Below, in pieces: positions 5,052-24,144 of a DNA stretch of 59,266 bases. The first letter of the stretch is position 1; each line of letters begins with the position of its first letter. The stretch comes from an uncultured Desulfomonile sp. Lineage in GTDB: Bacteria; Desulfobacterota; Desulfomonilia; Desulfomonilales; Desulfomonilaceae. Made by a program: the position numbers and the translations under genes. The notes beneath the pieces are model-generated. The model worked only from the letters and a program-made list of their open reading frames with translations, made no database searches and had not been told where the DNA came from. The stretch is from contig CAITZA010000047.1 in the NCBI GenBank assembly GCA_903896745.1, positions 1-59,266 on the forward strand, given 5' to 3'.

Positions 5052-5198
5052 TAAAATGATTCTCCAGATTTATGCCAGGTTAATGATTATTCTTGACCGC
5101 TCTCAAAGAATTTCGGGATGATGGCTTTGAACTTTTTTCAGTCAATGGATGGAACTGTCTCTGTAAACAGTGGTTTGTGTAAACTTCCCTCTTTTGGC

Positions 5199-6329: not shown

Positions 6330-6436
6330 CAAATCCTCCTGGTAATATTGTGAAGCCGGCCTGCTGCGCCAACATGCGCCAATGTTATCATCAAACCATT
6401 GAAATCGACAACATTTTTGGGCACTCCGGGACTTTC

Positions 6437-8653
6437 TTACCCCAAACGTCGCTTCCGGATGAAAACAAGGGCAGCCCCAATTCCCAAGACCGCAAAACAG
6501 ACCTGAGGAATCCAGGCCCAGACAACACATGGCCGGAACGCCATCTCGATGTCGGTCACACCCGGCGCCACTATCACCCCAAGATAAAAATCATTAACCT
6601 GAACCACCTGGAGCGGCGAATCCCCGTTCCACGCCTTCCATGAGGGATGATACTGTCGGCTCAGAAACAGTAAGGTTTCTCCTTCAAAACTTTCAGGTTT
6701 CACATGGATATAATCGTCAAAGGATTTTTCCGTCCGGGAATTCAGCCTGATCTGATCGTCCAGCGAGCCTGTTACCAATACCTGACACCCATCGTAAGAA
6801 AAATTCCTGAGTTGAGCCATCATCGCAGGCGCTTTGTTCCTGCGGTAGAACAGAATGCCCTGCGTTTCATGTACTTTGCTGAATTGATAGCTATGTATAG
6901 GCGTCTTTGAAACAAGAAGGTTGATTCCTGAATATGAAATAGCGTCAGAATCTATCTTTGAGTCTGATTCAATATATCCGAACCATCGACCAAAAGTGTG
7001 GGCGCCTTTATCGCTTAATCCCAAAATAATTTGTTGAAAGCGACGTGATGAAAGTGAATCGTAACTGAACGGACTGTTGACTCCAAGCATTATCTCATGA
7101 TTTGGCGGTATGAATCCGGCAAGTTCCGGTCCGATTTTTCCGTACCGATATCCCTTGGATTCCTTCACAAGCGCTTCCGTAAGCGGTGAGGATTGCACGA
7201 TGGCGCCAACCGGACGCACGAGCTGTAGCTGAAATCCGTAGGCAAAAACGCCAAGGATTCCCAGAAAGGTCATCATGAAAACGGCAATCTTTGGCATGGA
7301 TATGGCCATCGCTATCCCTGCAGTCGTTGCCAGGGATAGAAAAGCGTAACCAGGATTCACCGCGCCCGGTTCATGAATGGTGAGCATGGCCATCAGAGCC
7401 AGAGGGATAATGGAAGAGATGATTGCCATACGTGGATGGGATGTTCCCCCCCGAATCAGTCGTTCCATCCCGTAACCCGCTAACAGAAACGCCGGAATAA
7501 TGGCGGCGGACAACGGCAGATAGCGCGAAAAACAAAATCCCGCGTAGTCAACAAGCAGCAGGTACGCCGGTTTCCAGACCGTAGAAATAAAGCAAATCAT
7601 CACAAATGCTTGCCACGGCCAGAGTTTTTTCCATTGACCGTCAGGGACAGTCAACAGGGAAAGAGTGAAGTATAATGGCGTCAGACTGAGGCCGTTAAAC
7701 TCAAAGGGATAGCTCCTGTGGATGGGATTACCAAACCAGAAGGCGTCATAACATAGACCCAAAAAAAATCCTAAATCCTTGATGCCATGAATTTTTGGCA
7801 AAGAGGCCAGAAAAAAAACGTGATCAGCGTTAACCCTGTCTGACTGCCCTGCTGTAAAGCCCAGATCGATGTATACCGGCAATGCGCAGATCAAGCCGAA
7901 AAGGGTTGCTGCACAGAGCAGTCCCGCAACTTCCAGCTTTTCGAAGGTTTTGCTATTAGACCTCCAGAACAGCAGGAGAGTATATGTCAGAATTACATAG
8001 CCAGTGGCTACAACGCTTTGGGGATATGCGGTCATCAGGAGGCTGTAAACTCCGAAGGACAGCCCGGTTGCCACAACGAAGGACCTCTTATGAAAAAGTG
8101 CGGTAATCAGCCAGAGCAGGCACAGCGCCCAGCAAACAGGCGATAGGAACATGACAAAAGTCAGCCAGTATGATGACGGAACCCCACATGACAAGCCTAT
8201 TGATAAGACCAGACATGTCACCGGGTGAAAATCAACACGTTTCAGAAAAAGAAAACAGAATACTCCGGTTAGAATTACCGTGATTGCGGTGAAAATGGAG
8301 TAGAAAACGAAAGCGTTTGTTATAAACAGTGAGAGCAGGAAGGCGATCGGGTAGGCCCGGCTAAAACCAGAAAGATGTATTGCCGGACGTCCTAGCTGAT
8401 TGTGAGGATTCCAGGTAGTCAACCAGGAATGGCGTGCGCCATTCAGGTGGAGTTCAATTTCCGGCATATAGGCCGAACTCTGGTCTGAAAACTTCCGGTT
8501 CTCAGGACTGCAGTCAACGCCATCAGCCATACCCGTAAGTTCCAGATTGTTGCAATGCGGATAAATGACCTCCCCCAAAAATATTATTCTTGCGAGAAAC
8601 AATGCCTGGATAAGCATCAAGGCAAGAAAAGCTATTCTGTAACCATTTCCCAT
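6437..8653 (-). CDS. Large polytopic membrane protein, YfhO-like
   Basis: About 738 residues with a dozen or so hydrophobic segments over the first 500 residues, then a soluble C-terminal part and a last membrane helix followed by RKRRLG. The C-terminal section (LLFLSRQYHPSWKAWNGDSPLQVVQVNDFYLGVIV, then GVTDIEMAFRP) matches the signature of YfhO-like proteins, which sit in the GT-C glycosyltransferase superfamily and are linked to cell-envelope glycosylation. The start at 8653 follows the end of the upstream gene by 50 bases; the longest reading, from 8809, would overlap that gene by 106 bases. The ribosome site is weak, so the start is uncertain. It shares the strand and probably the transcript with the next membrane protein. 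Confidence 0.75.
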   Translation of the reverse strand: MGNGYRIAFLALMLIQALFLARIIFLGEVIYPHCNNLELTGMADGVDCSPENRKFSDQSSAYMPEIELHLNGARHSWLTTWNPHNQLGRPAIHLSGFSRAYPIAFLLSLFITNAFVFYSIFTAITVILTGVFCFLFLKRVDFHPVTCLVLSIGLSCGVPSSYWLTFVMFLSPVCWALCLLWLITALFHKRSFVVATGLSFGVYSLLMTAYPQSVVATGYVILTYTLLLFWRSNSKTFEKLEVAGLLCAATLFGLICALPVYIDLGFTAGQSDRVNADHVFFLASLPKIHGIKDLGFFLGLCYDAFWFGNPIHRSYPFEFNGLSLTPLYFTLSLLTVPDGQWKKLWPWQAFVMICFISTVWKPAYLLLVDYAGFCFSRYLPLSAAIIPAFLLAGYGMERLIRGGTSHPRMAIISSIIPLALMAMLTIHEPGAVNPGYAFLSLATTAGIAMAISMPKIAVFMMTFLGILGVFAYGFQLQLVRPVGAIVQSSPLTEALVKESKGYRYGKIGPELAGFIPPNHEIMLGVNSPFSYDSLSSRRFQQIILGLSDKGAHTFGRWFGYIESDSKIDSDAISYSGINLLVSKTPIHSYQFSKVHETQGILFYRRNKAPAMMAQLRNFSYDGCQVLVTGSLDDQIRLNSRTEKSFDDYIHVKPESFEGETLLFLSRQYHPSWKAWNGDSPLQVVQVNDFYLGVIVAPGVTDIEMAFRPCVVWAWIPQVCFAVLGIGAALVFIRKRRLG

Positions 8654-8703
8654 CGGATGATTCCACTCGGCGCCAAAGGTTCTGGAACCAGGGCGCTGGC
8701 ACG

Positions 8704-10302
8704 TCAAAATAATGACTCTCGAGGCGCTTCTTTCCGCGTAAGCAAATGGTATCCTGGCGGAAGCCCAGCGTTCCAGACTTCCTGAAAATTGCGGGTGATA
8801 AAATCCCACACCAGAGGATGTGTATTCATGAAACGAAACTCATCCCGACCGTCCACCGCTTCATCGCCAATAATGACAACCCTGAGATCTGACTTTTCCA
8901 TGTCTGATATCATGCGCCTTTGTTGTTTTTCCGTGGCCGGATGGAAAAAATATATTTCCCAAACGGGAGATTTCCTGTTCAGCGCTGGATACATGCCAGG
9001 CCAGTGCGGAGCAAAAAAAGCATCGCTCACGTTTTCTGTCCGGCCCTCTAGAATCTGGCGCATGTTCCCCAGCAGACGGGCCTGATCGGAGATTACCCAA
9101 AGAATATCCCTGCCCATCTTGACCTCCTGGAAATGATGTCCTGCCTGTTTGCTTTTCAGGTAGTGATAATAGTCATGCGCCCACAATCCTGAAAAAATTC
9201 CAGCGATAATGAAAAAAATCGTGTTGATTCTCACGGTTCTTATTTTGTCCAATCCGATAGCTTTTGGTATTGAAATCAAGGCGATAGCCAATGGTGGCAT
9301 GACCTGGGCCAGATGCCCCATATCAGCCCTCGAAAACGCATGATGTTGATAGAAAAACCCCACCACTGCGCTTGCGATCAAAACGCTGTTTCCAGACCAG
9401 AACCCTGGGCCGGATAGCATTGTCATAACAATGGTTGTTCCAAAGAAAATAGGCATAGCCAGAAAGCATATTGACCCGAACGTCTGAAACGCCGCTTGCG
9501 GCACATCGAGGCTAGTAGACGTCAGTAATTGTGGTATTACTCTCCACGGCCAGGGAACCGGCAGCGGAATGTTCGTTCCGTTTCTCGATACTGACATGAC
9601 TGATTCGATGACAGATTCTAATAAACCCGGATAAAACAGGATTAGCGTTAATATGGGGGAAAAACCGGTCAGTATGCCGGCAATCAATGCAGACAGATTT
9701 CCAGCCATAGGGATTGATTCCGTCTTGAACCAAATCATTGCAATCAGCAACATGAAGGACAGCAAAACATAAAGCGCATGGTTTGGGCCAAAGAATCCTG
9801 CCAAACCAATAAAAACCCCGCTGGCAAAAAGCCTTGCAAGGTTCGGTTTTTCTATTGTTAAAACAGCAAAATATACGGCCATCATGGTGATTGATGATTC
9901 GAAAAGCTTATGCCGGGGGAACATCCATACGGTTAGAAGTATCCCGAAGAGAAACAGGCAGGTTTTGTTGGAAAATATCCTGCTGGCAAGCATCAGGCCG
10001 AAAATGAGCCCTATGGCCTGAAACATGGCGTTTGACATTCTCAGGCTGACAATGCCCGGACCGGTCAGATGCATCCACAGGGATGACCAGTAGTAACGTC
10101 CGGGAAAATACGACTGAAAATCCCTTACAGGAACCTGTCCAGCAAGCGTGGCTTCAGCCCCATACCACAGAAATCCCTCATCAGCCGGATTGAATCCGAT
10201 GCGGCCTTCGATAAGGACAACTCCCCCTGCCAACAGAATTGAAACAATGGATATGTATAATAAAGACGTGGCTTTCGATAGTGCGCCTGGCCCCAGATTC
10301 AA
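8704..10302 (-). CDS. GT-C-type membrane glycosyltransferase
   Basis: A 532-residue polytopic membrane protein. After a first helix it has FNPADEGFLWYGAEATLAGQVPVRDFQSYFPGRYYW, a loop typical of dolichyl-phosphate-mannose-transferase-like (PMT/ArnT) GT-C enzymes in which the acidic DE pair serves catalysis or metal binding. About ten further helices follow, and a soluble C-terminal domain of about 120 residues. The start is TTG at 10302, with GGGGGGA about eight bases upstream; no ATG fits better. It is followed by the YfhO-like gene, which suggests a two-gene unit for transferring sugars to a lipid or protein in the envelope. The donor and acceptor are unknown. Confidence 0.7.
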   Translation of the reverse strand: MNLGPGALSKATSLLYISIVSILLAGGVVLIEGRIGFNPADEGFLWYGAEATLAGQVPVRDFQSYFPGRYYWSSLWMHLTGPGIVSLRMSNAMFQAIGLIFGLMLASRIFSNKTCLFLFGILLTVWMFPRHKLFESSITMMAVYFAVLTIEKPNLARLFASGVFIGLAGFFGPNHALYVLLSFMLLIAMIWFKTESIPMAGNLSALIAGILTGFSPILTLILFYPGLLESVIESVMSVSRNGTNIPLPVPWPWRVIPQLLTSTSLDVPQAAFQTFGSICFLAMPIFFGTTIVMTMLSGPGFWSGNSVLIASAVVGFFYQHHAFSRADMGHLAQVMPPLAIALISIPKAIGLDKIRTVRINTIFFIIAGIFSGLWAHDYYHYLKSKQAGHHFQEVKMGRDILWVISDQARLLGNMRQILEGRTENVSDAFFAPHWPGMYPALNRKSPVWEIYFFHPATEKQQRRMISDMEKSDLRVVIIGDEAVDGRDEFRFMNTHPLVWDFITRNFQEVWNAGLPPGYHLLTRKEAPRESLF

Positions 10303-10959
10303 TATCTGTTCCCCCCGTTTATATTTATGTAGTGGCTACTGAAACAAACCCGGCGTCTCTGATGATAATACGCCCCCCACAATCCTCAGGCCCAAATTTA
10401 CAGCACTACAGGTCTGAAATCAAACAATTTGGCAATATAGGCGAACATGATTTTTATGGCGCTTTCGGTCGGAGCGGATGATGACCATGTCAATTTAACA
10501 CATGTTAGTGGAACTGAATGTTGGCACCACCTCTACGGAATGGGAAACCAATTCTTCTTGAGGCTTCTCCAGAAACTTCACTGTATTTGAAAAGAAATGA
10601 CCCTATAAATTGGACTTACAAATGAATGATGACTTCCCAAAAGCATGTTCAATTACAATAAAAAATACTGTTACAAATGTTTTTAGGATATTATAATCAC
10701 CAGAATATTCTCATACATGTAGAAATCATTCCACGCTATCTGTTGACAACCCCATCGACAAGGTAGTTGATTAACATTTTTATTACCGTCTTTTCAGCGC
10801 CTTATGCAAACTGCCTTATAATAAGCAAGCCGTCCTTATAATATTTGTGCATACGCAGAACAACAGGCTTTGGTTCATGTCATCGATCAGACACGATTTT
10901 CGAAATACAGAAACCTATCAACAGTGGACAGGCGCCTTGCCTTCTCCGGAGGATGTTCC
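10303..10959. other. Long divergent intergenic region
   Basis: 657 bases between a minus-strand and a plus-strand gene; it must hold both promoters. I see two copies of CCTTATAATA (10814-10823 and 10835-10844), each containing a perfect TATAAT, but neither has a good -35 at the usual distance. A third TATAAT lies near 10692. There is no convincing gene or hairpin; the open frames here have no ribosome site or family pattern. Confidence 0.5.
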
Positions 10960-13900
10960 ATGAAAATCAAATTGTTTGGCAAACTGATCGGGATGTTAAT
11001 CGTTTTCTGGTCTGCAGCGGTCATGGGTCATTCCGAAAGTGAGGCGGTAAGAATGACTCACGAGGCCAAAAACATTTTCGACAAGGCAATTTCCAGGGAA
11101 GATTATCAGCGAGCCGACCGAAAATATGAAGAAGCATTGAGGATATTCCAAACGCTCAAGTCAGAATATGGGCTTTATTACTGTTATGTATCACGCGGGC
11201 TGATTCAACGCAAACTTGGCGATTACCAGAGCGCCTTAGAACATTATGAGAAGGCTCTTGCCCTTTCCCAGAGGATCGGTGACACCAAAAGAGAAGCAAT
11301 CACGCTGAGGGATATAGGTTTTATTCACAGATCCAGAAGCCAGTATGAAAGGGCATTGGAATACTATGAAAAAGCATTGACACTATGCCGAAAAATCAGC
11401 GATTCCAACCTGGAGGCAAGTATCCTTGATTTCACCGGATCTGCCTACACTTCTCTGGGGATGTATCATCAGGCATTGGAATTCCACGCTAAGGCATTAC
11501 AAATTTACAGGAAGGCTGGGAGTCAGATTGGAGAGGCCTCTGCGTTGAGCAATACGGGTTTGGCGCACAGGTATTTGGGCGCTTACGACAAGGCCATGGA
11601 ATATTACATGAATGCTTTGACTGTAGCTCAAAAGGGGCATCCTGTCGGGTCAAACGCTTCAATACTTGACAACATTGCAACGGTCCACAGTTTAACGGGA
11701 AATTATGAAAAAGCATACGAAACGTACCAACGTGCTCTCTCTGCCAGGAAAAAGTTCGGAGATGTCCAGGGGGAAGGTGTCACACTTAACAATATTGGCA
11801 GGGTACATTATTTTCGTGGTGAATTTGCAGCGGCTTTGGAAAAATATGACAACGCTCTGACAATTTTTGTAAAAATCGGTGACATGAGAGAAGAAGGCAA
11901 TACGTTGAAAAACAAGGGACTGGTATATACCGCTAGAGGTGAGCACGGTCCGGCTTTGGAAATGTATGAGCGTTCACTGGACATCTCGCGTAAAATTGGC
12001 GACGTAAGGGTCGAGGGCATTAATCTTACCAGCATGGGGCGTGTTTATTATTATTTAGGCGAATATTCCAAGGCATTGGATCTTTTCGAAAAATCTTCGA
12101 CTATATTCAGAAATATTGGAGACGTTACTGAAGAGGGCCTCACCCTGGACTACATGGGTCAGCTTTATTCTTCGTGGGGCCAACATGCGAAGGCTTTGTC
12201 GGTTTACAACAATTCACTTGACATGGCGAAAAAAATCGGCAGCAGAAATTTGGAAGGAGCAAGCCTGACGAATATTGGGGCAACCTATCTGCAGATGGGC
12301 AGAGTTGATGATGCGCTTCACAACTTTCGTGAATCTATGCGGCTAAACAAGACTATTGGTGTTCCAACAGAGGGCGTCAATGATCGGATCGGAAATCTTT
12401 ATTTGGACATGGGACAAATTGCTGAGGCGGAAGGCTTTGTGTTGGAGGCTGGGAGCGAATCCTCCCTGGGAAGGCTCTCGTTGTTAAAATCGGACTATCC
12501 GGGAGCTAAATCACATTATGAAAAGGCTCTTTCCGGGGCTGAAAAATCCAGAAACAGTGATGATCTTTTTTGCGCATACATGGGGCTTGGCCAAGTCTGT
12601 GAAGCCTCTGAGGATTATATTGTTGCAAAAGATTACTACGAAAAAGGTATGCGGCTCATAGAAGAGATTAGGTCAGGTCTTATGCCATCAGAGCGAAAAA
12701 ATTTCTTCGAGGTTAAAATTAAAGGTTTTCATCGTTCAGATGCCGCCAAAGGAATCACCCGTGTTGAAATGAAACTGAACCAAGGGTCTAACAGCATCGA
12801 TTCTAGCGAAGTAACCAGAGCCAGAGCCTTTTCAGACAACATATCCCAGCGATCTCGTGGTGGTTACGCGGGAATTGCCAGGGATGTACTGGAAAAGGAA
12901 GAGGTTCTTGCCTCCAGAGTGGCAGCGCTGAGAAAAGAACTCTCCCAAACGGACAAAGACACGCAGTTGGCGCGTTACGAAAACCTCCAAAAGGCCATCA
13001 AATCTTCAGAATCAGATCTTCGGGCCTTTGTGGAAGTACTTTGGAAACAAAACCCCGCTTACGCGGCAATAAAATATCCACGACCGGTCAGCTTGAAAGA
13101 ATCTGCCCTAAAATCTGGTGAATGCGCCGTGATTTTTGATGTTTCCAGCCAGGGCGTTGGAGTGAAACTCGTTCGAAACAAGCAAATTATGGAAACTTTT
13201 TTCAAGAAATGGGACAAGAAAGATCTCGAAAATGATGTGAAAAAGTTCCGAGAGCCTTTTGAGAAGCTTCGTTTCAATGAATTTGACCCTGAACTTGGTA
13301 AAACCCTGTATAAGAAACTATTGCTAAGAGTGTTAGTCGATCTTCCCAAAGGGACTCCGCTTGTCATAGTTCCTGATGGAATCCTTGCTCTCCTGCCATT
13401 TGAAGCCCTGGTTACCGGAGGCAATGTCAACTGGAAAAAAAGCGCGTATGGAATCGATAATCCTGAGGGTCTGTCCTACCTTGGGGACGAACATCCCATA
13501 AGTTACTATCAATCCATAACGGCGCTGACTCTGGTGAGAACTATGGGAAATTCCGACAAACCCAAGGACAAACTTCTCGTTATTGCTGATCCCGTTTTTG
13601 CCATGAAGGATGATAGAGCCCAGCAAGCTGGATCAGCGAACTTGTCTGAACGCGATAAAGAAAAAAATATTCAGTTAATGCGCACAATAGAGGACGTCAG
13701 CCAGGGGGCTTTAAGTTTCGGACGACTTCCGGAAACCGGAGTCCTGGCGGAGAATCTAAGCAAAATGTTTGGCGTAAATTGCGTTTCCCTAACCGGCTTA
13801 CTTGCCAACAAGGAAGATTTCCTCAACAGGATTGCTCCCCAAATGGAGCAATTTGGCAACATAATCTTTGCCACCCACGGAGTAATGTCCACTCACATCC

Positions 13901-14292
13901 CTGGTCTGATGGAACCATTTCTTGCACTAAGCATGACCCCTCCAGGAACTGATGGTTTCCTGAAAATGTCCGACATATTGTCCCTGAAAATGAATGCTGA
14001 TGTGGTTGCATTAACCGCTTGTCAATCAGGCCTTGGTCAAGAACTTTCCGGCGAGGGAGTAATGAGCATGGGAAGGGCATTCCAATACATAGGATCAAAA
14101 TCGGTTTTAATGTCCCTTTGGGCGGTTGAGGAAAAATCTGCAGTTGCCCTGGCAGAAAAATTCTTCAAATACCGCAAGGATGGAAAATCCAAACTGGAAT
14201 CATTGAAAGCAGCCAGAGATGATATACGGAATTCAGGATTTGGCCATCCCTTCTTCTGGAGCGCATTCATACTGGTGGGGGAGACCGATTAA
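10960..14292 (+). CDS. Exported TPR-CHAT protein (caspase-like), copy 1
   Basis: A 1110-residue protein. Residues 1-23 are a signal peptide (MKIKLFGK, a hydrophobic core, then AAVMG). Residues of about 35-590 are a continuous array of tetratricopeptide repeats with the 40-residue spacing of TPR_12 (recurring G-x-Y-x-x-ALEYYEKAL and KIGD elements). A coiled region follows, then a C-terminal CHAT domain (about 710-1110), a caspase-fold peptidase family. The catalytic pair is present: His973 in ATHG and Cys1021 in TACQSG. The start at 10960 has CCGGAGGA directly upstream; the longer frame from 10870 would bury the signal peptide. Its paralogue lies at 16.4-19.5 kb, convergent, with a cyclase gene between. 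It should act outside the cytoplasm. The target is unknown. Confidence 0.85.
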   Translation: MKIKLFGKLIGMLIVFWSAAVMGHSESEAVRMTHEAKNIFDKAISREDYQRADRKYEEALRIFQTLKSEYGLYYCYVSRGLIQRKLGDYQSALEHYEKALALSQRIGDTKREAITLRDIGFIHRSRSQYERALEYYEKALTLCRKISDSNLEASILDFTGSAYTSLGMYHQALEFHAKALQIYRKAGSQIGEASALSNTGLAHRYLGAYDKAMEYYMNALTVAQKGHPVGSNASILDNIATVHSLTGNYEKAYETYQRALSARKKFGDVQGEGVTLNNIGRVHYFRGEFAAALEKYDNALTIFVKIGDMREEGNTLKNKGLVYTARGEHGPALEMYERSLDISRKIGDVRVEGINLTSMGRVYYYLGEYSKALDLFEKSSTIFRNIGDVTEEGLTLDYMGQLYSSWGQHAKALSVYNNSLDMAKKIGSRNLEGASLTNIGATYLQMGRVDDALHNFRESMRLNKTIGVPTEGVNDRIGNLYLDMGQIAEAEGFVLEAGSESSLGRLSLLKSDYPGAKSHYEKALSGAEKSRNSDDLFCAYMGLGQVCEASEDYIVAKDYYEKGMRLIEEIRSGLMPSERKNFFEVKIKGFHRSDAAKGITRVEMKLNQGSNSIDSSEVTRARAFSDNISQRSRGGYAGIARDVLEKEEVLASRVAALRKELSQTDKDTQLARYENLQKAIKSSESDLRAFVEVLWKQNPAYAAIKYPRPVSLKESALKSGECAVIFDVSSQGVGVKLVRNKQIMETFFKKWDKKDLENDVKKFREPFEKLRFNEFDPELGKTLYKKLLLRVLVDLPKGTPLVIVPDGILALLPFEALVTGGNVNWKKSAYGIDNPEGLSYLGDEHPISYYQSITALTLVRTMGNSDKPKDKLLVIADPVFAMKDDRAQQAGSANLSERDKEKNIQLMRTIEDVSQGALSFGRLPETGVLAENLSKMFGVNCVSLTGLLANKEDFLNRIAPQMEQFGNIIFATHGVMSTHIPGLMEPFLALSMTPPGTDGFLKMSDILSLKMNADVVALTACQSGLGQELSGEGVMSMGRAFQYIGSKSVLMSLWAVEEKSAVALAEKFFKYRKDGKSKLESLKAARDDIRNSGFGHPFFWSAFILVGETD

Positions 14293-14481
14293 GCCGATCT
14301 GATTTCCACTGATTCCGAGCCTGGAAGATCATTTAATTCGTTAAACTGGATGCTTGGATATGCAATCCGTTAATGCGGTGTTTCATGTGTTTGTATCCCA
14401 AACAGATCAGATGTTTTCACAATTGTGTTATCATACACAACGGATAAAAAACTCGTGAAAACCTGGGAAATAGCTGGGCCT

Positions 14482-16098
14482 ATGGACGCTGCGAACAAAA
14501 AATATGCTTTAAGGCTGTTGGTTGTCATACATGTGATCAACGCTTTAATAAACATTCTTGGCGCATCAATTACGTTTGTATGGTTTTCACATCTTCAACC
14601 CGGTCTAACAGGTGGTGGTGACTTAATCGCTCTTCGCGATCGGGCAATTTTTTCTCTGGTGTTAGTTAGCTTGCTTTCTGCCATAGGCTTGCCGATCGAA
14701 CTAAGATGGCTGGGGGCTCTGGTAAAACAGTTAAACTGTCTTAAGAACGCTTATAGCGATAACAAACATGATTCAGAGGAATTTCTCAGACACAACGATC
14801 TTGTGACAAGACTCATAAACGTCCCTATCAAGCTATCGCTGCTAAACCTTGGGTTGTGGGCAACTTCAGGGGTAATATTCGCTGTAGCGCCATTCATTTT
14901 TCCGGAATACTGTCCATGGGATGAGGATTCAGCTGCCAAAATATCGGCCTGGTCATTTTTCTTGGGCGCTCCCATAGTAATCGTGCTTGGTTACTTCGTT
15001 TCCGAGTTCTGGATTCGCAAAACTGTTGAGGGCATTTTTCCGGCCGGCTCATTGCTCGGCCGACCGCATGGCGCTGGCATGAATGCGTTTCCGAGGCTTC
15101 TAATTGTAACGCTAATGATTGGTATAATGCCTCCGGCTCTTATTAGCCATGTAACCTTGAGACAGATTGCAGACATTCGCAATGGCTTTCAGTCTATTGA
15201 CAGTTTTCTAGTCCAGATGCCAGTGGCAATAAACTTTCTACTCTGCCTGACAGTTGTTCTGGCGGTCATTCTGTCAGCATTTTTGGCTCACAGTATATCG
15301 GAACCCTTGCGAAAAACCGAAATAGGCATGAGAAGGATTGGGACTGGGGATCTCGAGGCAAGAGTAAAAGTGGTTTCTCGTGACGAAATTGGCTCCATGG
15401 GGGAAGGGTTTAACATGATGGCGGAGGGACTCAAGGAACGGGCCTATATAAGGGAAACTTTTGGAAGCTACCTGAGCGATGAGATTGTTAGGGAAATACT
15501 TCATTCACCTGACGGCGGCAAACTTGGGGGAGAACTGAGAAACATAACCATACTGGTTTCGGACTTGCGAGGTTTTACGCCGTTGACCGAATCCTTGGAA
15601 CCGCACATTGTAGTAGGTTTGCTAAACCGTTACTTTGAAAGAATGACCGACGTCATTATTTCTCACTCTGGGATCATTGATGAATTTGTGGGGGATGGCA
15701 TCCTTGTTTTTTTTGGCGCTCCTCAGCCATTGCAGAATCATGAGCAGGCCGCTGTCTTCTGCGCTATCGAAATGCAGGAAGCCCTAAAGAGAATGAACCA
15801 GGAAAATCGGTCCGCTAACTTGCCCGAACTGCGCATGGGAATCGGCGTGAACTCAGGGGAAGTGATAGTAGGCAATATCGGGTCTGACAAACGCAAGAAA
15901 TACGGGGCAGTAGGAAGTCCCATAAACATCGCTTTTCGAGTTCAAAGCCTTGCTGGAGCAGGAGAAATTATCATTACCCCCTCTGTCTATGAGCGCCTGG
16001 ACTCCGTCGAAGCCACAGAAACAAGAGAAACCACCTTGAAAGGATTTGACAAGACTATTGTTCTTCGGAGTGTGTTTTCGCTTACCCACAGAAGCTAG
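14482..16098 (+). CDS. Membrane class III nucleotidyl cyclase with HAMP domain
   Basis: About 538 residues. Six hydrophobic helices fill residues 1-270. A HAMP domain (about 270-330, EPLRKTEIGMRRIGTGDLEARV) follows, then a class III cyclase domain (about 350-535). The two metal-binding aspartates are visible, Asp361 in VSDLRGFT and Asp405 in FVGDGILVFFG, as are the transition-state residues Asn482 and Arg486. The base-selecting positions are unusual: Glu401 where adenylyl cyclases have Lys, and Ser479 where they usually have Asp or Thr, so cGMP as well as cAMP must be considered. It makes the second messenger in the cytoplasm in response to a membrane signal. A GTG at 14425 would give 19 more residues; neither start has a strong ribosome site. 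It lies between two TPR-CHAT genes. Confidence 0.85.
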   Translation: MDAANKKYALRLLVVIHVINALINILGASITFVWFSHLQPGLTGGGDLIALRDRAIFSLVLVSLLSAIGLPIELRWLGALVKQLNCLKNAYSDNKHDSEEFLRHNDLVTRLINVPIKLSLLNLGLWATSGVIFAVAPFIFPEYCPWDEDSAAKISAWSFFLGAPIVIVLGYFVSEFWIRKTVEGIFPAGSLLGRPHGAGMNAFPRLLIVTLMIGIMPPALISHVTLRQIADIRNGFQSIDSFLVQMPVAINFLLCLTVVLAVILSAFLAHSISEPLRKTEIGMRRIGTGDLEARVKVVSRDEIGSMGEGFNMMAEGLKERAYIRETFGSYLSDEIVREILHSPDGGKLGGELRNITILVSDLRGFTPLTESLEPHIVVGLLNRYFERMTDVIISHSGIIDEFVGDGILVFFGAPQPLQNHEQAAVFCAIEMQEALKRMNQENRSANLPELRMGIGVNSGEVIVGNIGSDKRKKYGAVGSPINIAFRVQSLAGAGEIIITPSVYERLDSVEATETRETTLKGFDKTIVLRSVFSLTHRS

Positions 16099-16186
16099 AG
16101 CTCATCCCCTGAAATTGCAGCACAATCGCGACCCCGTTGGGCCCCGGACTTTTGAGCCAGTTTGGAAAAAGTAGGTCAAAAACTAA

Positions 16187-16402
16187 TTGTTTTTAGTCGT
16201 TTCGTTATTGATGTGCTCTCCGGCTCATGGTTTTGAGGCTCATTGCATGGTAATCCAAGATGCCGAGATGCGCTACGACATCATCAATCATTACAGGATG
16301 AAGGAACATAAGAGCATTTCACTTTGCGACTGGGATTCCAGAATGGCAGGCGCCGTACATGCAGCAATCCTGCAAGAGCCGAATTGCAGAATCGTAGCTT
16401 AA
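16187..16402 (+). CDS. Possible small secreted protein
   Basis: A 71-codon frame starting with TTG right after a stop codon. It begins with a hydrophobic, signal-like stretch (MFLVVSLLMCSPAHG) and contains four cysteines. It ends 31 bases from the stop of the converging second CHAT gene. There is only a weak AGTAGG upstream and I recognise no family, so it may be chance. If real, it would be a small exported protein inside the CHAT-cyclase locus. Confidence 0.25.
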   Translation: MFLVVSLLMCSPAHGFEAHCMVIQDAEMRYDIINHYRMKEHKSISLCDWDSRMAGAVHAAILQEPNCRIVA

Positions 16403-16433
16403 CGATACGATGTTGGCGAGGCATCGACTTGGT

Positions 16434-19400
16434 CTAGTTTGAGGCCTCTCCTACAAGTACGAAGCCAGACCAGAAATATGGGTGATTGTACCCCTCATTG
16501 CGTATGTCTTTCCTCGCAAGCTGAAGGGCCTCGAGTTTTGTTTTACCCTCTTTACGATATTTGAAGAATTTTTCTGTCATTTTAACAGCAGAGGCTTCTT
16601 CAACCTCCCACAAGGTCATTAAGACCGATTTGGCCCCAGCGTACTGGAATGCCCGTCCCATGCTCATCACCCCCTCTCCGGAAATGTCCCTGCCAAGCGC
16701 TGTCTGGCATGCCGTAAGCGCAACCACATCAGCATTCATTTTAAGGGACAGGATGTCAGACATTTTCAGGAAGCCGTCTGTTCCCGGAGGTATCATTGTG
16801 AGCGCAAGGAAAGGTTCCATCAAGCCCGGAATTTTTGTCCCCATAGCTCCATGAGTAGCAAAAACCACACTTCCGAAGCTTTCCATAGCAGGCCCCGCCA
16901 TGGCCATGAAATCAGCTTTGGTGGCTTCCAAACCCTTGAGTACCAGGCAGTCCGTTCCATACATTCTTGCGAGGTGATCAGCAAGGTCAGATGTGCCTTG
17001 GAGTCGGGTCAATCTAAATTTTCCGTCGGTACTGTCTTCGATTGTCCGCATAAGCTCGATGGCGTCGCGACGGCCAGTGACCGCAATCCTGGCCTCGGTT
17101 CGGTTTTGAGCCCTTCTGTCAGTCATTTCAAAAACAGGATCAGCTATGACTGCGATCCTGCCTGCGGGCTTCAAGCCTGAACCAAAAGTCCTCACCAGCG
17201 TTAGCGCAGTGAGCGACTGGTAATATGTCAGTGAATGATCGTCACCCAAGAATGTTAGCCCAGCAGGACCAGGAAACCCGAGCGCTCCTTTTTCCCAGAA
17301 AACCTGTCCACCAGTTACCAGGGCTTCAAAAGGGAGTATGGCTAAGGCTCCATCCGGCACAATTATTAAGGGAGTATACTGTGGAACATCACTTAATATT
17401 TCACCTAGAAGTCTGTCATAAATCTGTCGGCCCAATTCATGGTCAAAATCGACAAATCTTAATTCCTCAAGGGGAGCTCTGAATTTTATAATAGACCTTT
17501 CAAGATCCTCTTGTTTCCAGTTTATGTAAACGGATTTTATTAAATGCTTCCCTTGCAGGAGTTTCACGCTCACGCCATCGTCACAAACATCGAACAGGAT
17601 GGCATGTTCGTGAGAATGGATTCCCGCATCTCTCAGAGTGATAGGTTTGGGATATTTTGCGGCGGCGTACAACGGATACGTCTTCCACAGATTCTCCACA
17701 AAGCGTTCAAACTCTGACGTGCGCCTGGCGCATGCCCGTGAAAGATTATCAAATTTCTCGGGTTGTTTTTCCCTGTCAGTTCGGGAAAGATCCTTTTTCA
17801 GGGCTGCGATTGAATTGGCTAGCTCTTGCTCTTGAAGCGATATTTCTTGAGGCATTTTAGCTGCGCCGGTAGCGTTGGCCTGGCAAAGATGATCAGCGAA
17901 AGCTCTTGCTTTAGTCATTTCTCCCGGAGAGATGCTTTGTTCGGGTTGATTGAGTTTCATCAGGATACGAACCAGACCTTTGGCCGGATCAGATCTTGAA
18001 AAACCTCCCATTTTGAAATCGAAAAAATTTTTTCGTTCTGCAGGCAATGTTGCGGATCTGATTTCCTCTGTCAGTCTGAGGGCTTTTTCGTAAAACTCCC
18101 TGGCTTTCAGAAGATCTCCAGCGCACTCATAAGATCTCCCGAGACCAGCGCTTCCAACAAACATCAAATCAGCGTTGTTACTCTTTTCTGCAAGTTCCAG
18201 CGTTTTCTCGTAGGCCAGGGTTGCAGCTGCAAGATCATTTTTTAGCAGCGCAATTCTGCCACGCGTAGCATCATAAACACCCTGACCGGCAAGTAACTCA
18301 GCCCTCTGAAGATCATTTTTATCCAGGAGAAAATTTACGAGTTGATCTCTGGTCAATGAAGATGGGACGTTAATTTCCTCTTTAATCCTCATCGCTTTGA
18401 GGAAGGTCTTTTCAGCCTCTTCCGTCCTGCCCATAGCCCCCAGCGTATAGGCGACGTTTGTCATCATCATGCTGGCGTCGGATTTGTTTCCTATCTGGAG
18501 GCATATATCCAGGGAGCTGTTGTATGCATCCAAAGCCTTGGAAAACTGACCCAGCTTCACGTAGACACTTGCCATATTCTGACGTGAACCGGACGCTCCT
18601 ATCAAATCACCAGTTTTCTCCTGTCCCGTCAGAGATTTGGAATAGTATTCAAGGGCCTCGGAATACTGGCCCATAGCAGAGAGGGAAACTCCTATGTTGT
18701 TGGTAGCCTTGTGTGCAGCGAAAAGATCTCCCATGCTGTCCAGACGGTTGAGAGCCTGCTCGAAATATTCTATGGATTTGGGATATTGGCCCATTTCCTG
18801 ATACACCTGACCTATATTGTTCATGGTGATTCCCTCACTTCCCACATCTCCGAGGCTTCTTTTCATTTCGAGCGATTTTTCATAATATTCCAGAGATTCC
18901 GGATAATTCGCCTGGCGATTTTGTATATAGCCCAAAGAATCAAGACAAGCCGCTTCCACCACGCGGCTTCCCGATTTACGGCTCTTTGCGAGGGATTCGG
19001 AAAAAAGTGACCTGGCTTTGGAGAAGTCACTTAGAGCGACATGGACATTGCCCTGATTATTAAGTGTTAAGGCCTCTCCCTCAACATTTTTAAGGCTACG
19101 ATGAATTTTTAGGGACTTGTCGAAATAATCCAGTGATTCACGATAGGCGGAAGTGTAATAGTGGGCTGACCCCAGATTATCAAGATTGATGGCCTGCCCA
19201 TTGAGGTCACCAACTTTTTTCATCATGCCTAATGAGCGGTTGGCAAAATCGATGGATTTCGCATAGTCGCTCAGGCTAAGCCATACCTTGCCGGAAAACA
19301 ATAATGAATAGGCCTTACCTTTCGTATCTCCCGCCCTGTCAAAATGTACGTAGGCCTGTTGAAGCCCGTCAAGAGACCGTGTAAGGTCATCTCTGGTTTT

Positions 19401-19532
19401 TGCCGTCCTGATTCTGTCTATAGCCGACATGAGAAGTTCTGATCCCTTCCTGTCGGTCTGAGCCATACAGTCACAATTGCATGTCACGCTCAGAACCACG
19501 GCTATTACAAATATGAATCCGAATTGTTTCAT
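16434..19532 (-). CDS. Exported TPR-CHAT protein (caspase-like), copy 2
   Basis: A 1032-residue paralogue of the protein encoded at 10.96-14.29 kb with the same order of parts: signal peptide (about residues 1-24, hydrophobic core then CMAQ), a TPR array (about 35-510, with ALEYYSKSL, SLEYYEKSL and GD/NNIG elements), a helical linker and a CHAT domain (about 630-1032). The catalytic pair is His894 in ATHG and Cys942 in TACQT, 48 residues apart exactly as in copy 1. The last 130 residues are very similar in both copies, for example GTDGFLKMSDILSLKMNADV is shared, while the TPR parts differ more. This suggests a duplication in which sensing diverged and the effector stayed constant. A palindrome at 19587-19608 lies upstream. 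Confidence 0.85.
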   Translation of the reverse strand: MKQFGFIFVIAVVLSVTCNCDCMAQTDRKGSELLMSAIDRIRTAKTRDDLTRSLDGLQQAYVHFDRAGDTKGKAYSLLFSGKVWLSLSDYAKSIDFANRSLGMMKKVGDLNGQAINLDNLGSAHYYTSAYRESLDYFDKSLKIHRSLKNVEGEALTLNNQGNVHVALSDFSKARSLFSESLAKSRKSGSRVVEAACLDSLGYIQNRQANYPESLEYYEKSLEMKRSLGDVGSEGITMNNIGQVYQEMGQYPKSIEYFEQALNRLDSMGDLFAAHKATNNIGVSLSAMGQYSEALEYYSKSLTGQEKTGDLIGASGSRQNMASVYVKLGQFSKALDAYNSSLDICLQIGNKSDASMMMTNVAYTLGAMGRTEEAEKTFLKAMRIKEEINVPSSLTRDQLVNFLLDKNDLQRAELLAGQGVYDATRGRIALLKNDLAAATLAYEKTLELAEKSNNADLMFVGSAGLGRSYECAGDLLKAREFYEKALRLTEEIRSATLPAERKNFFDFKMGGFSRSDPAKGLVRILMKLNQPEQSISPGEMTKARAFADHLCQANATGAAKMPQEISLQEQELANSIAALKKDLSRTDREKQPEKFDNLSRACARRTSEFERFVENLWKTYPLYAAAKYPKPITLRDAGIHSHEHAILFDVCDDGVSVKLLQGKHLIKSVYINWKQEDLERSIIKFRAPLEELRFVDFDHELGRQIYDRLLGEILSDVPQYTPLIIVPDGALAILPFEALVTGGQVFWEKGALGFPGPAGLTFLGDDHSLTYYQSLTALTLVRTFGSGLKPAGRIAVIADPVFEMTDRRAQNRTEARIAVTGRRDAIELMRTIEDSTDGKFRLTRLQGTSDLADHLARMYGTDCLVLKGLEATKADFMAMAGPAMESFGSVVFATHGAMGTKIPGLMEPFLALTMIPPGTDGFLKMSDILSLKMNADVVALTACQTALGRDISGEGVMSMGRAFQYAGAKSVLMTLWEVEEASAVKMTEKFFKYRKEGKTKLEALQLARKDIRNEGYNHPYFWSGFVLVGEASN

Positions 19533-19779: not shown

Positions 19780-21411
19780 CTATTTTTTGTAAAGTTTCTT
19801 GAGCCTGTTAATGTGACCCCTGCCTAAACCTTTCACTTCGCAACCTAGTTCGAAATAGCGCTTGATGGAATTATCATCCAGCATCCCGAAGCAGTCGATC
19901 ACCGCCATTGGCGCCCCTACGCCATTGAAAATGTCATCCGGATTCATATCCCTGAAACATTTGTGAGGAACTGCTAGGATAATCACATCAGCGCCCTTCA
20001 GCGCAGCGGCCAGATCGCTTTCAACAGTCAGCTCCTTCAGGCGTTTTTGATTCCTGAAAAAACGGGCCTTACTCTTTCCGGGAGTTGGGTAAGAGTCCTG
20101 CGCCTCGAATTCCCACCAGTGATCAACATAGGGATCATGAACACAAATATCTGCCCCCATTTCCGCCAGCCTGCGCACGATGACTTCAGAGCCGCTATAC
20201 CTGGTGTCCCCTACGTCTTCCCTATAGGAAGCGCCGAGGATAGTAACTTTCGAGGCAGCGATGTATCTGCCCATGTTTCTCAGGGCATCCCTGGCTAGCT
20301 CTGCAACATGAAGCGCCCTGCTATCATTAATATTGATGGCCATGGGCGTAATTTTAAACAGGTCATCCTGAAAACCAAGTAAATGCTTGTATGCCCATAC
20401 ACCCAGCCCACCATCTTTTGGCAGACAATATCCCCCTATTCCAGGGCCGGGGAATATCATGTTCGAGTGAGTCGGACGAACCTTGATGGCGTTAATGACC
20501 TTGATCAGGTCAACTCCGTTGCGTTCAGAGAACAGACTCCATTCATTCAGGAACGCCAAAATTGTCGCCCTGAAACTGTTCTCAACTATTTTTGCAGTTT
20601 CTGATTCAATCGGTCTGTCCAAAACGGTCAACGGAAAATTTTCCGTATCTATGACTTCACTGAGGAATCTTGACACCCTTTCTCGAGATGTCTCGTTGAT
20701 ACCACTGCATACCCGCCAGAAGTTTCGAACCGAAGAAACATAATTTGCGCCGGGCATGACCCGCTCATAACTATGCGCCAAAACTGGCTCACTGGTAATA
20801 CCCCTGGACTTGAACGCCTTCGAAATGAGTGGATAGGCGACCTGTTCCGTCGTTCCCGGAGGCACTGTAGTTTCTATTAGCACAAGCGCATCGGGCTTTA
20901 TTTTTTCTCCAATGATTTCAAGAGATTTCTCAAGGTCATCAAGCTGCACATACCCGGTGGCGACATCTGCCAACGATTCTTTTATGTAGTCGCATTGCAC
21001 ATCAACAACGACCACATCCGCAAGACGAAGGGCTTCATATGTAAACGAAGCAGTGAGAGTCTTTTTTTCATTAACACATCTGCCAATAAGCTCATCTACC
21101 TCCGGGTCTTCCGATTTCATGGGTGTGACGCCCCTGTTAATAATTTGTATTTTCCAAAAACTTCTGGAGCTCGGTCTTTGCATTCCAATTACAAATTTTC
21201 CGGATCGGCCCGAAGCGTCCTCTGAATCAGCGATCACCGCCGCCATGACCGCTCCCACAAAACCCAGTCCCACAACGACAACTATCTCCCTCCCCAATTC
21301 CTTGTTATAACTCGCAAGCTTTTCCAGCCGCTCATATTCGGCGCTGTAATCCTGTTCATCCGGAAGGGGAAATTTTTCTCCATCAGGGCTTATTGAGAAT
21401 TCTTTGTTCAT
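19780..21411 (-). CDS. Nucleotide-sugar dehydrogenase (UDP-glucose/GDP-mannose dehydrogenase family)
   Basis: A 543-residue NAD-dependent enzyme that oxidises the C6 hydroxyl of a nucleotide sugar to a uronate in two steps. The NAD-binding motif VVGLGFVGAVMAA lies at about residues 46-58, after a 45-residue N-terminal extension. ETTVPPGTTE, VENSFRATILAFLNEW and the active-site cysteine motif GGYCLPKD follow, then the C-terminal UDP-binding domain. The overall pattern is closer to UDP-N-acetyl-mannosaminuronate/UDP-N-acetyl-glucosaminuronate dehydrogenases than to plain UDP-glucose dehydrogenase, but the substrate is not certain. It is longer than the usual 430 residues because of the N-terminal extension and inserts. 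AAGGAAAA precedes the ATG. It probably feeds surface polysaccharide synthesis. Confidence 0.85.
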   Translation of the reverse strand: MNKEFSISPDGEKFPLPDEQDYSAEYERLEKLASYNKELGREIVVVVGLGFVGAVMAAVIADSEDASGRSGKFVIGMQRPSSRSFWKIQIINRGVTPMKSEDPEVDELIGRCVNEKKTLTASFTYEALRLADVVVVDVQCDYIKESLADVATGYVQLDDLEKSLEIIGEKIKPDALVLIETTVPPGTTEQVAYPLISKAFKSRGITSEPVLAHSYERVMPGANYVSSVRNFWRVCSGINETSRERVSRFLSEVIDTENFPLTVLDRPIESETAKIVENSFRATILAFLNEWSLFSERNGVDLIKVINAIKVRPTHSNMIFPGPGIGGYCLPKDGGLGVWAYKHLLGFQDDLFKITPMAININDSRALHVAELARDALRNMGRYIAASKVTILGASYREDVGDTRYSGSEVIVRRLAEMGADICVHDPYVDHWWEFEAQDSYPTPGKSKARFFRNQKRLKELTVESDLAAALKGADVIILAVPHKCFRDMNPDDIFNGVGAPMAVIDCFGMLDDNSIKRYFELGCEVKGLGRGHINRLKKLYKK

Positions 21412-21666
21412 TTGTTTTCCTTAATAAAAGTTATTAAGACCTTTTTGACCCTTGATTTTAGTTGGGCCACCGGCATTACGAAGACTTGTACGCCACCTCG
21501 ATCAGTTTCAGGAAAAGCCGTTTTACGAAATCATATTCAAAGGTGTTTCATGCACAGGATAAAATGGCTCAATCTGTTTAGTCAAGGACAAAAAGCCGTT
21601 GAAGACCGCATGGGTATGTGTTATTTTAAAAGATTAATTGCTCACCTACAGTAATTCGGAGGAATT

Positions 21667-24144
21667 ATGGAACCGAAATATAATCCTGAAGTTATCGAGC
21701 GCAAATGGCAATTTTTTTGGGAAAAAGAGGAAATTTTCAAAGTGGAGCTTGATAATGCCAAGAGTAAATATTACTTGCTGGAGATGTTCCCATATCCGTC
21801 AGGCCGCATACACATGGGGCATGTGAGAAATTACTGCATTGGCGATGTGGTAGCCAGGTTCAGAATGTCCCAGGGATTTAATGTGCTCCATCCAATGGGT
21901 TGGGATGCGTTTGGCATGCCTGCTGAGAACGCAGCTATAAAACACGGATCACACCCTGCAGTATGGACCATAAATAATATTAAAGAGATGCGACGCCAAC
22001 TCAAGAGGATAGGCTTATCTTATGACTGGAGCCGTGAGATTGCAACGTGCCATCCGGAATACTACAGATGGGAACAGTGGCTATTCATAAGAATGATGGA
22101 AAGAGGCCTGGTTTACCGGAAAAAATCCATCGTAAACTATTGTGAACCTTGCGCGACGGTTCTTGCAAATGAGCAGGTAGAAGACGGCCAATGCTGGAGA
22201 TGCGGAACCAATGTAATTCAGCGCGAACAGGATGGATGGTTTTTCAAGATTACGGCGTACGCCCAGGAGTTGCTCGAAAAATGCGATGAATTGTCAGGCT
22301 GGCCGGAGAAAGTGCTTACCATGCAGCGTAACTGGATTGGTAGAAGTGAGGGAGCGCGCATACTGTTTCAGCTTGAGAATTCTGACGACTCGATAGAAGT
22401 ATTTACTACACGACCGGACACTCTTTACGGGGCAACTTTCATGAGTTTGGCCCCTGAACACCCATTGTGCCTCAAACTCTCAAGGGGAACCTCACAAGAA
22501 GCGGCAGTCCAGAAATTTGTCAACGAAGCCCTTACTCAGGACTGGCAGACCCGTGTGGGAGAGAATGCAGAAAAAAAGGGCGTGTTTTTGGGGGCTTACT
22601 GTCTGAATCCTCTCACGGGCAGAAGAATGCCAATTTATAGCGCCAACTTTGTGCTTTTTGATTATGGAACCGGAGCTGTAATGGCCGTTCCTGCGCATGA
22701 TCAAAGGGACTTCGAATTTGCGAGAAAGTATGGGTTGGATATTGTGGTGGTCATACAGCCAGATGGAGAAATCCTGAATGCTGGGTCCATGACCGAAGCA
22801 TACGTTGATGAAGGCTTTCTTGTAAATTCCGGCGAATTTGACGGGACTGACAATATAAGCGCCAAGAGATCCGTTTCTCAAAAGCTTGAGTCTATGGGAA
22901 GAGGCGGTTTAACAATAAACTATCGGATACGGGATTGGGGGATATCGCGTCAGAGGTATTGGGGGGCGCCCATACCAATCATTCATTGCGAAAATTGTGG
23001 GATAGTTCCAGCGCCGGATGATCAGTTACCCGTAGTATTGCCAACGGACATCGATTTTCCTGCTAGTGGCCGTTCTCCATTGCCGGAATTGGACTGGTGG
23101 GTAAACGTAACATGCCCGAAATGCGGCATACCGGCCAAAAGGGAAACCGACACCATGGACACGTTTGTCGAGTCATCCTGGTATTTTGACCGATACACAT
23201 GCCCAAGATTCGATGGTGGGATACTAAACCCCAAAGAGCTAGGCTACTGGGTCCCTGTTGATCAATATATCGGTGGGATTGAACACGCTATTCTGCATCT
23301 TCTTTATTCCCGTTTTTTCACCAAAGCCTTAAGAGATCTCGGAATCAAATCGCAGGATGAACCCTTCCGGAACCTGCTTACACAGGGCATGGTAATCAAG
23401 GACGGGGCCAAGATGTCAAAATCAAAGGGTAATGTAGTAGATCCTGAAGAGCTTATTGACAAATATGGTTGCGATACGGTGCGTCTGTTCTGCCTTTTTG
23501 CGGCGCCTCCGGAAAGAGATCTTGAATGGACATCAGAGGGCGTTGAGGGAGCGGCACGCTTTCTGAACAGGGTTTGGAATCTCGTTTACCTATTCAAGGA
23601 CCTCCATTTCCCTAAACATATTTCCGATCAATCAGATATTGCACGTTCGATCAGACGCTTGACACACAAGACTCTCAAAAAAGTCACTGACGACATAAAC
23701 AACAGATTCAGGTTCAATACCGCAATTGCTGCAATCATGGAATTCTCGAATGAACTGGGGAAGATTTCACCAAGGGACACTATGGCTTCAAATGACCTGA
23801 CAGAGGCTGTTTACTCGGCGGTCAGGTCTCTTGTGTTCATGTTATCCCCATTCACGCCGCATTTTGCAGAAGAGTTATGGGAAAACCTCGGAGGGAAAAG
23901 CGGCATGACAAGGATCGCCTGGCCGACCTATGACGAGGCATTTCTTGTAGAAGATTCCCTGCTGATCATTGTTCAGGTAAACGGAAAAAAACGATCTGAA
24001 ATAAATGTGCCTGTCGATGCAACCGAAGATCAGATTAAACAGATGGCCTTGGCCGAACTCAACGTCCAGAAGTTCATTGAGGGTAAGACTATCCGAAAAA
24101 TGATCGTTGTTCCAGGAAAGCTTCTGAATATAGTGGTAGGTTAA
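21667..24144 (+). CDS. leuS: Leucyl-tRNA synthetase
   Basis: An 825-residue class Ia synthetase that charges tRNA-Leu. The HIGH-type motif [12 protein letters not shown] is at about residues 41-52. The editing domain with [12 protein letters not shown] is in the middle (about 235-245). WYFDRYTCP lies near 505. The KMSKS motif is exact at residues 582-586. The C-terminal anticodon-binding region ends normally, and the length is standard for bacteria. GGAGGAATT lies directly before the ATG. lptE follows by 141 bases on the same strand, an order that is common in Proteobacteria (leuS-lptE-holA); holA is missing here. Confidence 0.98.

Follow-up and report, generated by a model that had tools for sequence, protein, structure and literature searches.

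The window, by which we mean the whole stretch of 59,266 nucleotides that was analysed, belongs to a Desulfomonilaceae MAG and carries two genes for TPR-CHAT proteins with that of a membrane class III nucleotidyl cyclase between them (Table 1). Open reading frames and domain searches agree with the layout given in the original prediction, that is, CHAT (plus strand), membrane cyclase (plus) and CHAT (minus). CHAT 1 and the cyclase gene lie on the same strand with some 130-190 bp between them, and may be transcribed together. To the right of the block are the genes for UDP-glucose/GDP-mannose dehydrogenase and LeuRS, which are divergent neighbours in most genomes of the family, whilst the other 17 family genomes contain no relative of the gene to its left; the block thus sits at a synteny break. 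No clean ‘empty site’ could be found in relatives, as the left flank is without counterpart and they carry other genes there. Scans gave 21 promoter-like sites (14.3 +/- 3.9 in shuffles) and 12 terminator-like sites (10.0 +/- 3.8 in shuffles), figures from which little can be read, and an Rfam search returned no matches.

Table 1. Features of the CHAT-cyclase-CHAT block (positions within the window).
Feature	Position	Strand	Remarks
TPR-CHAT 1, 1110 aa, predicted exported	10960..14292	+	start ATG 10960, GGAGG upstream
CHAT 1 predicted signal sequence (MKIKLFGKLIGMLIVFWSAAVMG...)	10960..11040	+	hydropathy; sequence read directly
CHAT 1 CHAT domain	13291..14283	+	catalytic His codon 13876-13878, Cys codon 14020-14022
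Membrane class III nucleotidyl cyclase, Cya2-like guanylyl-type substrate residues	14425..16098	+	557 aa from GTG 14425
Cyclase: six predicted transmembrane helices, short loops, without periplasmic sensor domain	14515..15285	+	
Cyclase HAMP domain	15280..15435	+	
Class III cyclase catalytic domain	15538..16053	+	
TPR-CHAT 2, 1032 aa, predicted exported, convergent with cyclase gene	16434..19532	-	
CHAT 2 CHAT domain	16446..17438	-	catalytic His codon 16851-16853, Cys codon 16707-16709

The two proteases and the cyclase

Both TPR-CHAT proteins match the CHAT model PF12770 far above its curated cut-off of 24 bits (E=1.5e-48 and 5.4e-47; 166 and 161 bits), with the domain search placing TPR arrays ahead of the CHAT domain in each. 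A His-Cys dyad is present in both (ATHG and TACQ), 48 residues apart as the original prediction had it, but almost every TPR-CHAT of the family whose dyad could be located shows this spacing of 48 (48-50), so that it points to no special link between the two. The claim that their CHAT domains are alike and their TPR parts diverged also stands, at 62% and 33.5% identity, respectively. Hydropathy reveals an N-terminal hydrophobic signal sequence on both, such that they are expected to act, and most likely do work, outside of the cytoplasm, as predicted members of an exported, lineage-expanded TPR-CHAT family. We infer from sequence that they are cysteine peptidases, and what we say of their catalysis, export, substrate and partners is to be read in the same light. 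The domain search found no nucleotide-binding domain in either.

An AlphaFold2 model of the C-terminal half of CHAT 1 (pLDDT 82.9) was matched by Foldseek to Csx29, separase and SAVED-CHAT; as modelled, CHAT 1 has a caspase/separase-like fold. The best matches were to Csx29, the TPR-CHAT protein of type III-E CRISPR (Craspase; PDB 8eex, 7xsq, 8d9f; E about 1e-14, prob 1.0), which has the same order of TPR and CHAT and the same His-Cys dyad; identity, however, is only 12-15% with a TM of about 0.5, and the window CHATs are predicted to be exported and have a longer TPR array. No gene for Cas7-11 (gRAMP) is present among the window neighbours that were read. After the Craspase chains, the next match was the transmembrane anti-sigma factor DdvA (PDB 8rot, 8rw5; E=2e-10), but the window CHATs are without an anti-sigma domain. 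At two other loci of the family (L106 and L120), TPR-CHAT genes come after genes for an ECF sigma factor and a zf-HC2 anti-sigma factor.

The cyclase has a HAMP and a Guanylate_cyc domain (PF00211, 86 bits), and probably starts at ATG 14482, since alignments with relatives begin at residue ~20 of the longer frame. Its motifs VSDLRGF, FVGDG and PIN..R supply the metal-binding Asp residues and the transition-state Asn/Arg. The predicted topology leaves periplasmic loops of about 25, 17 and 25 aa, and no CHASE2 domain was found by domain search. When aligned to PDB 2w01 (Glu) and 6fht (E488K variant, Lys), it shows Glu, rather than the Lys of adenylyl cyclases, at the substrate position. The former structure is that of Cya2, the CHASE2-linked guanylyl cyclase of Synechocystis (PMC5995499); the two catalytic domains align end to end (E=9e-52) and have in common the specificity Glu (IDEFxGDGILV) and a YGxVG motif, whereas Cya2 has a CHASE2 sensor and the window enzyme six membrane helices with HAMP. 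Being Cya2-like, the window enzyme is probably a guanylyl cyclase and so probably makes cGMP. Its catalytic domain is predicted to be cytoplasmic, and would thus lie in a different compartment from the exported proteases.

Paralogues and conservation

Each window CHAT is closer to a paralogue (about 70%) on another contig of the same genome, C489, than to the other window CHAT, and the tree joins CHAT 1 with C489-A (support 98/89) and CHAT 2 with C489-B (100/99); the two are therefore not each other's closest relatives. The C489 pair is arranged in tandem and adjoins genes for a cNMP-binding Ser/Thr kinase and a PP2C phosphatase, with no cyclase beside it, and has no intergenic DNA in common with the window block.

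The original prediction proposed a search of genomes for the trio and its order: in our comparison set of 18 family genomes, one of this genus, it was found in one genome only. That genome has 16 CHAT hits and 7 cyclases in all; the two occur together solely on the contig of the window, and none of its other CHATs has a cyclase beside it. Nor was a CHAT found in the fetched flanks of any of 13 full-length family relatives of the window cyclase (39-64% identical), whose neighbours, where read, were MFS, glycerate-kinase-like, PilZ, VWA or M32 genes. Across the 18 genomes, a CHAT lies within 5 kb of just one non-CHASE2 cyclase in 129, the window's own, with 1.04-1.72 expected by chance, and a genome with as many genes of each kind would contain one or more such adjacencies about 6% of the time. 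For a cyclase to be flanked by CHATs on its two sides, the probability would be about 1e-4 under random and independent gene order, a figure that is weakened by the tendency of CHATs to come in pairs.

TPR-CHAT genes beside CHASE2 cyclases

Outside of the window, genes for CHASE2 sensor proteins, caspase-like proteases and OmpA-type proteins are frequent neighbours of TPR-CHAT genes. Within the family, three of ten CHASE2 cyclases adjoin a TPR-CHAT gene (0.10-0.17 expected, P=2e-4 to 7e-4); in other phyla a CHASE2 protein, detected by a home-made profile, is found at 8 of 47 CHAT loci (0.53 expected), with Pfam-confirmed CHASE2 cyclases at five of the 47. Adjacency above chance extends over Desulfomonilaceae, Desulfococcaceae, Elusimicrobia, Sphingomonadales, Rhodospirillales and Sterolibacterium, and at two loci (L086 and L087) cNMP-binding kinases accompany the CHAT and CHASE2-cyclase genes. 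Relatives with CHAT genes scattered and never near a cyclase had been named as telling against the original idea; the genes are indeed scattered, but they do come to lie near cyclases, those of the CHASE2 type.

The window has one feature of this association, in that an exported TPR-CHAT gene adjoins that of a class III cyclase, as it also does in Sphingobium (pMSHV), Sandarakinorhabdus and Niveispirillum. There, CHAT and CHASE2 cyclase are same-strand neighbours, accompanied in Sphingobium and Sandarakinorhabdus by a small extra gene and two-partner-secretion genes; the window has none of these. This genome encodes no CHASE2 protein, and in the tree the window CHATs are placed apart from the clade of those family CHATs that pair with CHASE2 cyclases.

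The small proteins encoded between CHAT and CHASE2 cyclase were given no name by NCBIfam, which returned only TPR/HAMP background; in several loci they look FecR-like by eye, though no model matched. Among five CHAT proteins of cyanobacteria that were checked for fusion to CHASE2, a conceivable arrangement, none showed it. In the literature searched, a body that leaves most subscription journals outside, no paper contains both ‘CHAT domain’ and ‘CHASE2’.

Readings of the locus

We favour, with moderate confidence, a reading in which the trio is a local accident, where an exported A+B pair of TPR-CHAT genes came to lie around the gene for a membrane guanylyl cyclase; relatives of this enzyme are widespread in the family, and their genes have unrelated neighbours. 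Less easily squared with an accident are the low probability of a CHAT on either flank, the possible co-transcription of CHAT 1 and the cyclase, the kinase and phosphatase genes beside the C489 pair, and the CHASE2 cyclases that accompany exported TPR-CHATs elsewhere. On the favoured account, the TPR array would bind a partner or ligand, which would free the His-Cys dyad of the CHAT domain, in the manner of Csx29, to cleave a protein of the envelope; the usual partners of the CHATs may be caspase-like C14-DUF4384 and OmpA-TPR proteins. The cyclase, for its part, would sense a membrane signal via its six-helix domain, to be relayed by HAMP into production of cGMP in the cytoplasm. The trio as such would then matter little. 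With regard to the combined protease and second-messenger system that was originally suggested, the idea fares poorly for the trio, given its chance-level adjacency and separate compartments, but gains ground more generally from the CHASE2 cyclases that adjoin TPR-CHATs and from the sister pair beside a cNMP-binding kinase.

A less likely, though serious, alternative is that the trio represents a working variant of the pairing between TPR-CHAT and sensor cyclase: the exported CHATs would sense an envelope signal and cut or bind a partner, so as to set the activity of the membrane cyclase, with a HAMP-type guanylyl cyclase replacing the CHASE2 enzyme and cGMP acting via the cNMP-binding kinase of C489. 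The above-chance adjacency in the family and other phyla speaks for this, as does the recurrence of such kinases beside the C489 pair and at L086 and L087; furthermore, in a genome without a CHASE2 protein another cyclase would have to serve. Set against it, the window cyclase exposes hardly anything on the periplasmic side that an exported protease could reach, no CHAT is present in the fetched flanks of its 13 relatives, and the CHATs associated with CHASE2 cyclases belong to another clade.

More speculatively still, we envisage an envelope module spread across phyla, wherein an exported TPR-CHAT protease might gate a membrane nucleotidyl cyclase, turning proteolytic sensing on the outside into cAMP/cGMP on the inside, to be read by cNMP-binding kinases; the window would then hold a variant whose cyclase, a HAMP guanylyl cyclase with six helices, substitutes for the usual CHASE2 enzyme. 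A precedent for an envelope protein signalling to membrane cyclases is provided by the CHASE2 cyclases CyaD1/CyaD2/CyaK of Sinorhizobium meliloti with the outer-membrane protein NsrA, as described in passages of PMC13001267 that mention no CHAT protease; the window cyclase differs in being without CHASE2.

Bacterial TPR-CHAT proteases are best studied in cytoplasmic CRISPR complexes. Should the CHAT-CHASE2 pairing prove functional, it would offer a protease of the envelope a hitherto undescribed means of controlling a cyclic-nucleotide signal, one that is amenable to testing in cultured bacteria.

We think it very improbable that the messenger made by the cyclase activates the CHAT proteases in the way that cyclic oligonucleotides activate the SAVED-CHAT protein (PDB 8tl0), itself named among SAVED-domain proteases (PMC11417357). 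That protein does tie a CHAT protease to a nucleotide second messenger, but the window CHATs have neither its SAVED domain nor any other nucleotide-binding domain, and both are predicted to be exported, away from the cytoplasmic catalytic domain of the cyclase. Least credible of all is a Pycsar-type defence island of cyclase and effectors: the catalytic domain does match PADLOC PycC models (best E=4e-22), but these match class III cyclases generally and Guanylate_cyc scores similarly, no adjacent gene among the neighbours read encodes a cNMP-binding TIR or membrane effector, and at its substrate positions the enzyme has the residues of Cya2, a guanylyl cyclase.

Layout and genomic setting of the trio

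Open reading frames and Pfam matches agree with the layout first proposed for this block, in which a membrane cyclase gene (HAMP plus Guanylate_cyc) follows one TPR-CHAT gene, CHAT1, on the plus strand and faces a second, CHAT2, on the minus strand; each CHAT protein consists of a long TPR array followed by the CHAT domain. Identity between the two is 62% in the CHAT domain and 33.5% in the TPR part, bearing out the described contrast between similar peptidase domains and diverged repeats. Both also have the expected His-Cys spacing of 48 residues, although this is uninformative on the pair, because nearly all Desulfomonilaceae TPR-CHATs in which a motif scan located the dyad have a spacing of 48-50.

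Taken as a unit, the trio is probably nothing unusual. The source genome, a Desulfomonilaceae MAG (4.07 Mb, 497 contigs, of which the window is C47), has 16 CHAT hits and seven class III cyclases, with the two together on no contig other than that of the window; it is the sole member of its genus among the 18 family genomes compared, which yielded 99 CHAT hits and 139 cyclases. Across these 18 genomes the proposed grouping does not recur: a CHAT lies within 5 kb of one of the 129 cyclases that lack CHASE2, which is at chance level (1.0-1.7 expected). The chance of some cyclase lying beside some CHAT in this genome alone is about 6%, and that of a cyclase being flanked on both sides about 1e-4, assuming independent CHAT placement; since CHATs come in pairs, the true value for flanking on both sides lies between these two figures.

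To the right of the block are UDP-glucose/GDP-mannose dehydrogenase and LeuRS genes (window 19780-24144), divergent neighbours in most family genomes, and the gene next on the left has no relative in the 17 other family genomes; synteny breaks at the block, just left of 19.78 kb. A hydrophobic signal sequence, as judged from hydropathy only, is present at the start of CHAT1 and CHAT2, as of most intact family TPR-CHATs; the two proteins are accordingly predicted to be exported, and the catalytic domain of the cyclase to be cytoplasmic. Given the near-chance adjacency, the synteny break and this predicted difference in compartment, we favour, with some reserve, an accidental neighbourhood as the most likely explanation of the trio.

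In the window cyclase, six predicted membrane helices precede HAMP and the class III domain; if the N-terminus is assumed to be inside, three loops face the periplasm, and these measure about 25, 17 and 25 residues. Among natural enzymes of solved structure, Synechocystis Cya2 comes nearest to it (E=9e-52); in Cya2, Glu makes a guanylyl cyclase and Glu->Lys an adenylyl cyclase. With this Glu conserved, the window enzyme is probably a guanylyl cyclase. Full-length relatives (39-64% identical) were read at 13 family loci, of which six had flanks of about 9 kb on each side and others were cut short by contig ends; no CHAT was found in any of these flanks, and the neighbours vary from place to place.

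Features of the window and of the compared loci (L-numbers, extracted loci with flanks)
Feature	Location	Strand	Remarks
2-hydroxyacyl-CoA dehydratase D-component-like genes (PF06050)	window 3855-6530		two, adjacent
CHAT1	window 10960 (ATG) to 14292	plus	GGAGG upstream of start
Membrane cyclase	window 14425 (GTG), or more likely 14482 (ATG), to 16098	plus	
CHAT2	window 19532 down to 16434	minus	
Second copy of A+B CHAT pair	L030 (G000:C489) 7646-17094	one strand	tandem
CHASE2 cyclase, TPR-CHAT, cNMP-binding + TIR protein	L166 5278-11860		side by side; Elusimicrobia
TPR-CHAT adjoining CHASE2-domain class III cyclase	L084, L086, L087, L161, L166, L170, L172, L197, L205, L206		several phyla
ECF sigma + zf-HC2 anti-sigma gene	L106 5293-10395; L120 5535-10568		directly upstream of TPR-CHAT
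~1700-aa TPR-CHAT	L025, L097, L100, L102, L105, L109, L113, L118, L121, L124, L126, L127		

CHASE2 cyclases beside CHAT genes

The original suggestion of a combined protease and second-messenger system is borne out in part: no trio is conserved in the family, but CHATs do adjoin CHASE2 cyclases elsewhere, and it is this association that merits follow-up. When GTDB genomes were scanned with a CHAT profile, six of the 47 loci from outside the family had a class III cyclase in the flanks (1.1 expected, P=6e-4), five of the six being CHASE2 cyclases. The family has only ten full CHASE2 proteins; a CHAT adjoins three of them, two of these in one genome, where 0.10-0.17 would be expected (P=2e-4 to 7e-4). 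Any CHASE2 protein is found at 8 of the 47 loci (0.53 expected), as counted with a profile built partly from those same loci; for L176, L189 and L190 among the eight, the assignment comes from this home-built profile alone, L170 and L172 are closely related, and the CHAT gene of L161 is fragmented. With the four Pfam-confirmed, non-redundant loci alone, the excess remains but is modest.

Such loci often include a small protein (DUF4384 or without assigned family), and some carry two-partner-secretion genes, as in Sphingobium and Sandarakinorhabdus. Plasmid records place a CHAT beside a CHASE2 cyclase in Sphingobium and Niveispirillum; retrieved with queries from such a locus, these are examples and no independent test. 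The domain composition of the cNMP-binding and TIR protein of L166 is that of a Pycsar TIR effector. Sinorhizobium CHASE2 cyclases are described as responding via an outer-membrane protein (PMC13001267), and therefore offer a precedent for an envelope protein that controls a membrane cyclase.

By analogy, the trio may be a substituted variant of this pairing, with a HAMP cyclase in place of the CHASE2 enzyme. We regard this as possible but doubtful: the window cyclase lacks CHASE2, no CHASE2 protein occurs anywhere in the source genome, and the family CHATs that are paired with CHASE2 cyclases belong to a different clade from those of the window. That the cyclase's messenger activates the CHATs directly is unlikely, as neither CHAT1 nor CHAT2 contains a nucleotide-binding domain and both are predicted to be exported.

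Paralogues, fold and neighbours of the CHAT proteins

In a maximum-likelihood tree, CHAT1 groups with one CHAT of C489, another contig of the same genome (98/89), and CHAT2 with the gene adjoining that partner (100/99), so that the pair, A (CHAT1-like) and B (CHAT2-like), is present twice in the genome. The C489 pair adjoins a cNMP-binding Ser/Thr kinase and a PP2C phosphatase, with no cyclase on that contig. Kinases resembling this one adjoin a CHAT and a CHASE2 cyclase in L086 and L087.

The C-terminal 500 residues of CHAT1, modelled with AlphaFold2 (pLDDT 82.9), have Csx29 of Craspase as their best fold match; DdvA, an anti-sigma factor, comes next, followed by separase and SAVED-CHAT. The sigma/anti-sigma arrangement in L106 and L120 could be a candidate DdvA-like or CASP-sigma-like link.

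Recurrent neighbours of family TPR-CHAT genes are caspase-like C14-DUF4384, OmpA-TPR and DUF4384 proteins; the C14 proteins repeatedly adjoin TPR-CHAT together with OmpA-TPR (L091, L093, L099, L104, L111, L112, L117, L026) and carry DUF4384 or, in L026, PDZ and an S41 protease. Twelve family genomes contain a TPR-CHAT of ~1700 aa with two conserved upstream genes; the His-Cys dyad is retained in some copies, and others have Tyr-Cys or Tyr-Ile, which suggests that catalysis has been lost in the latter.
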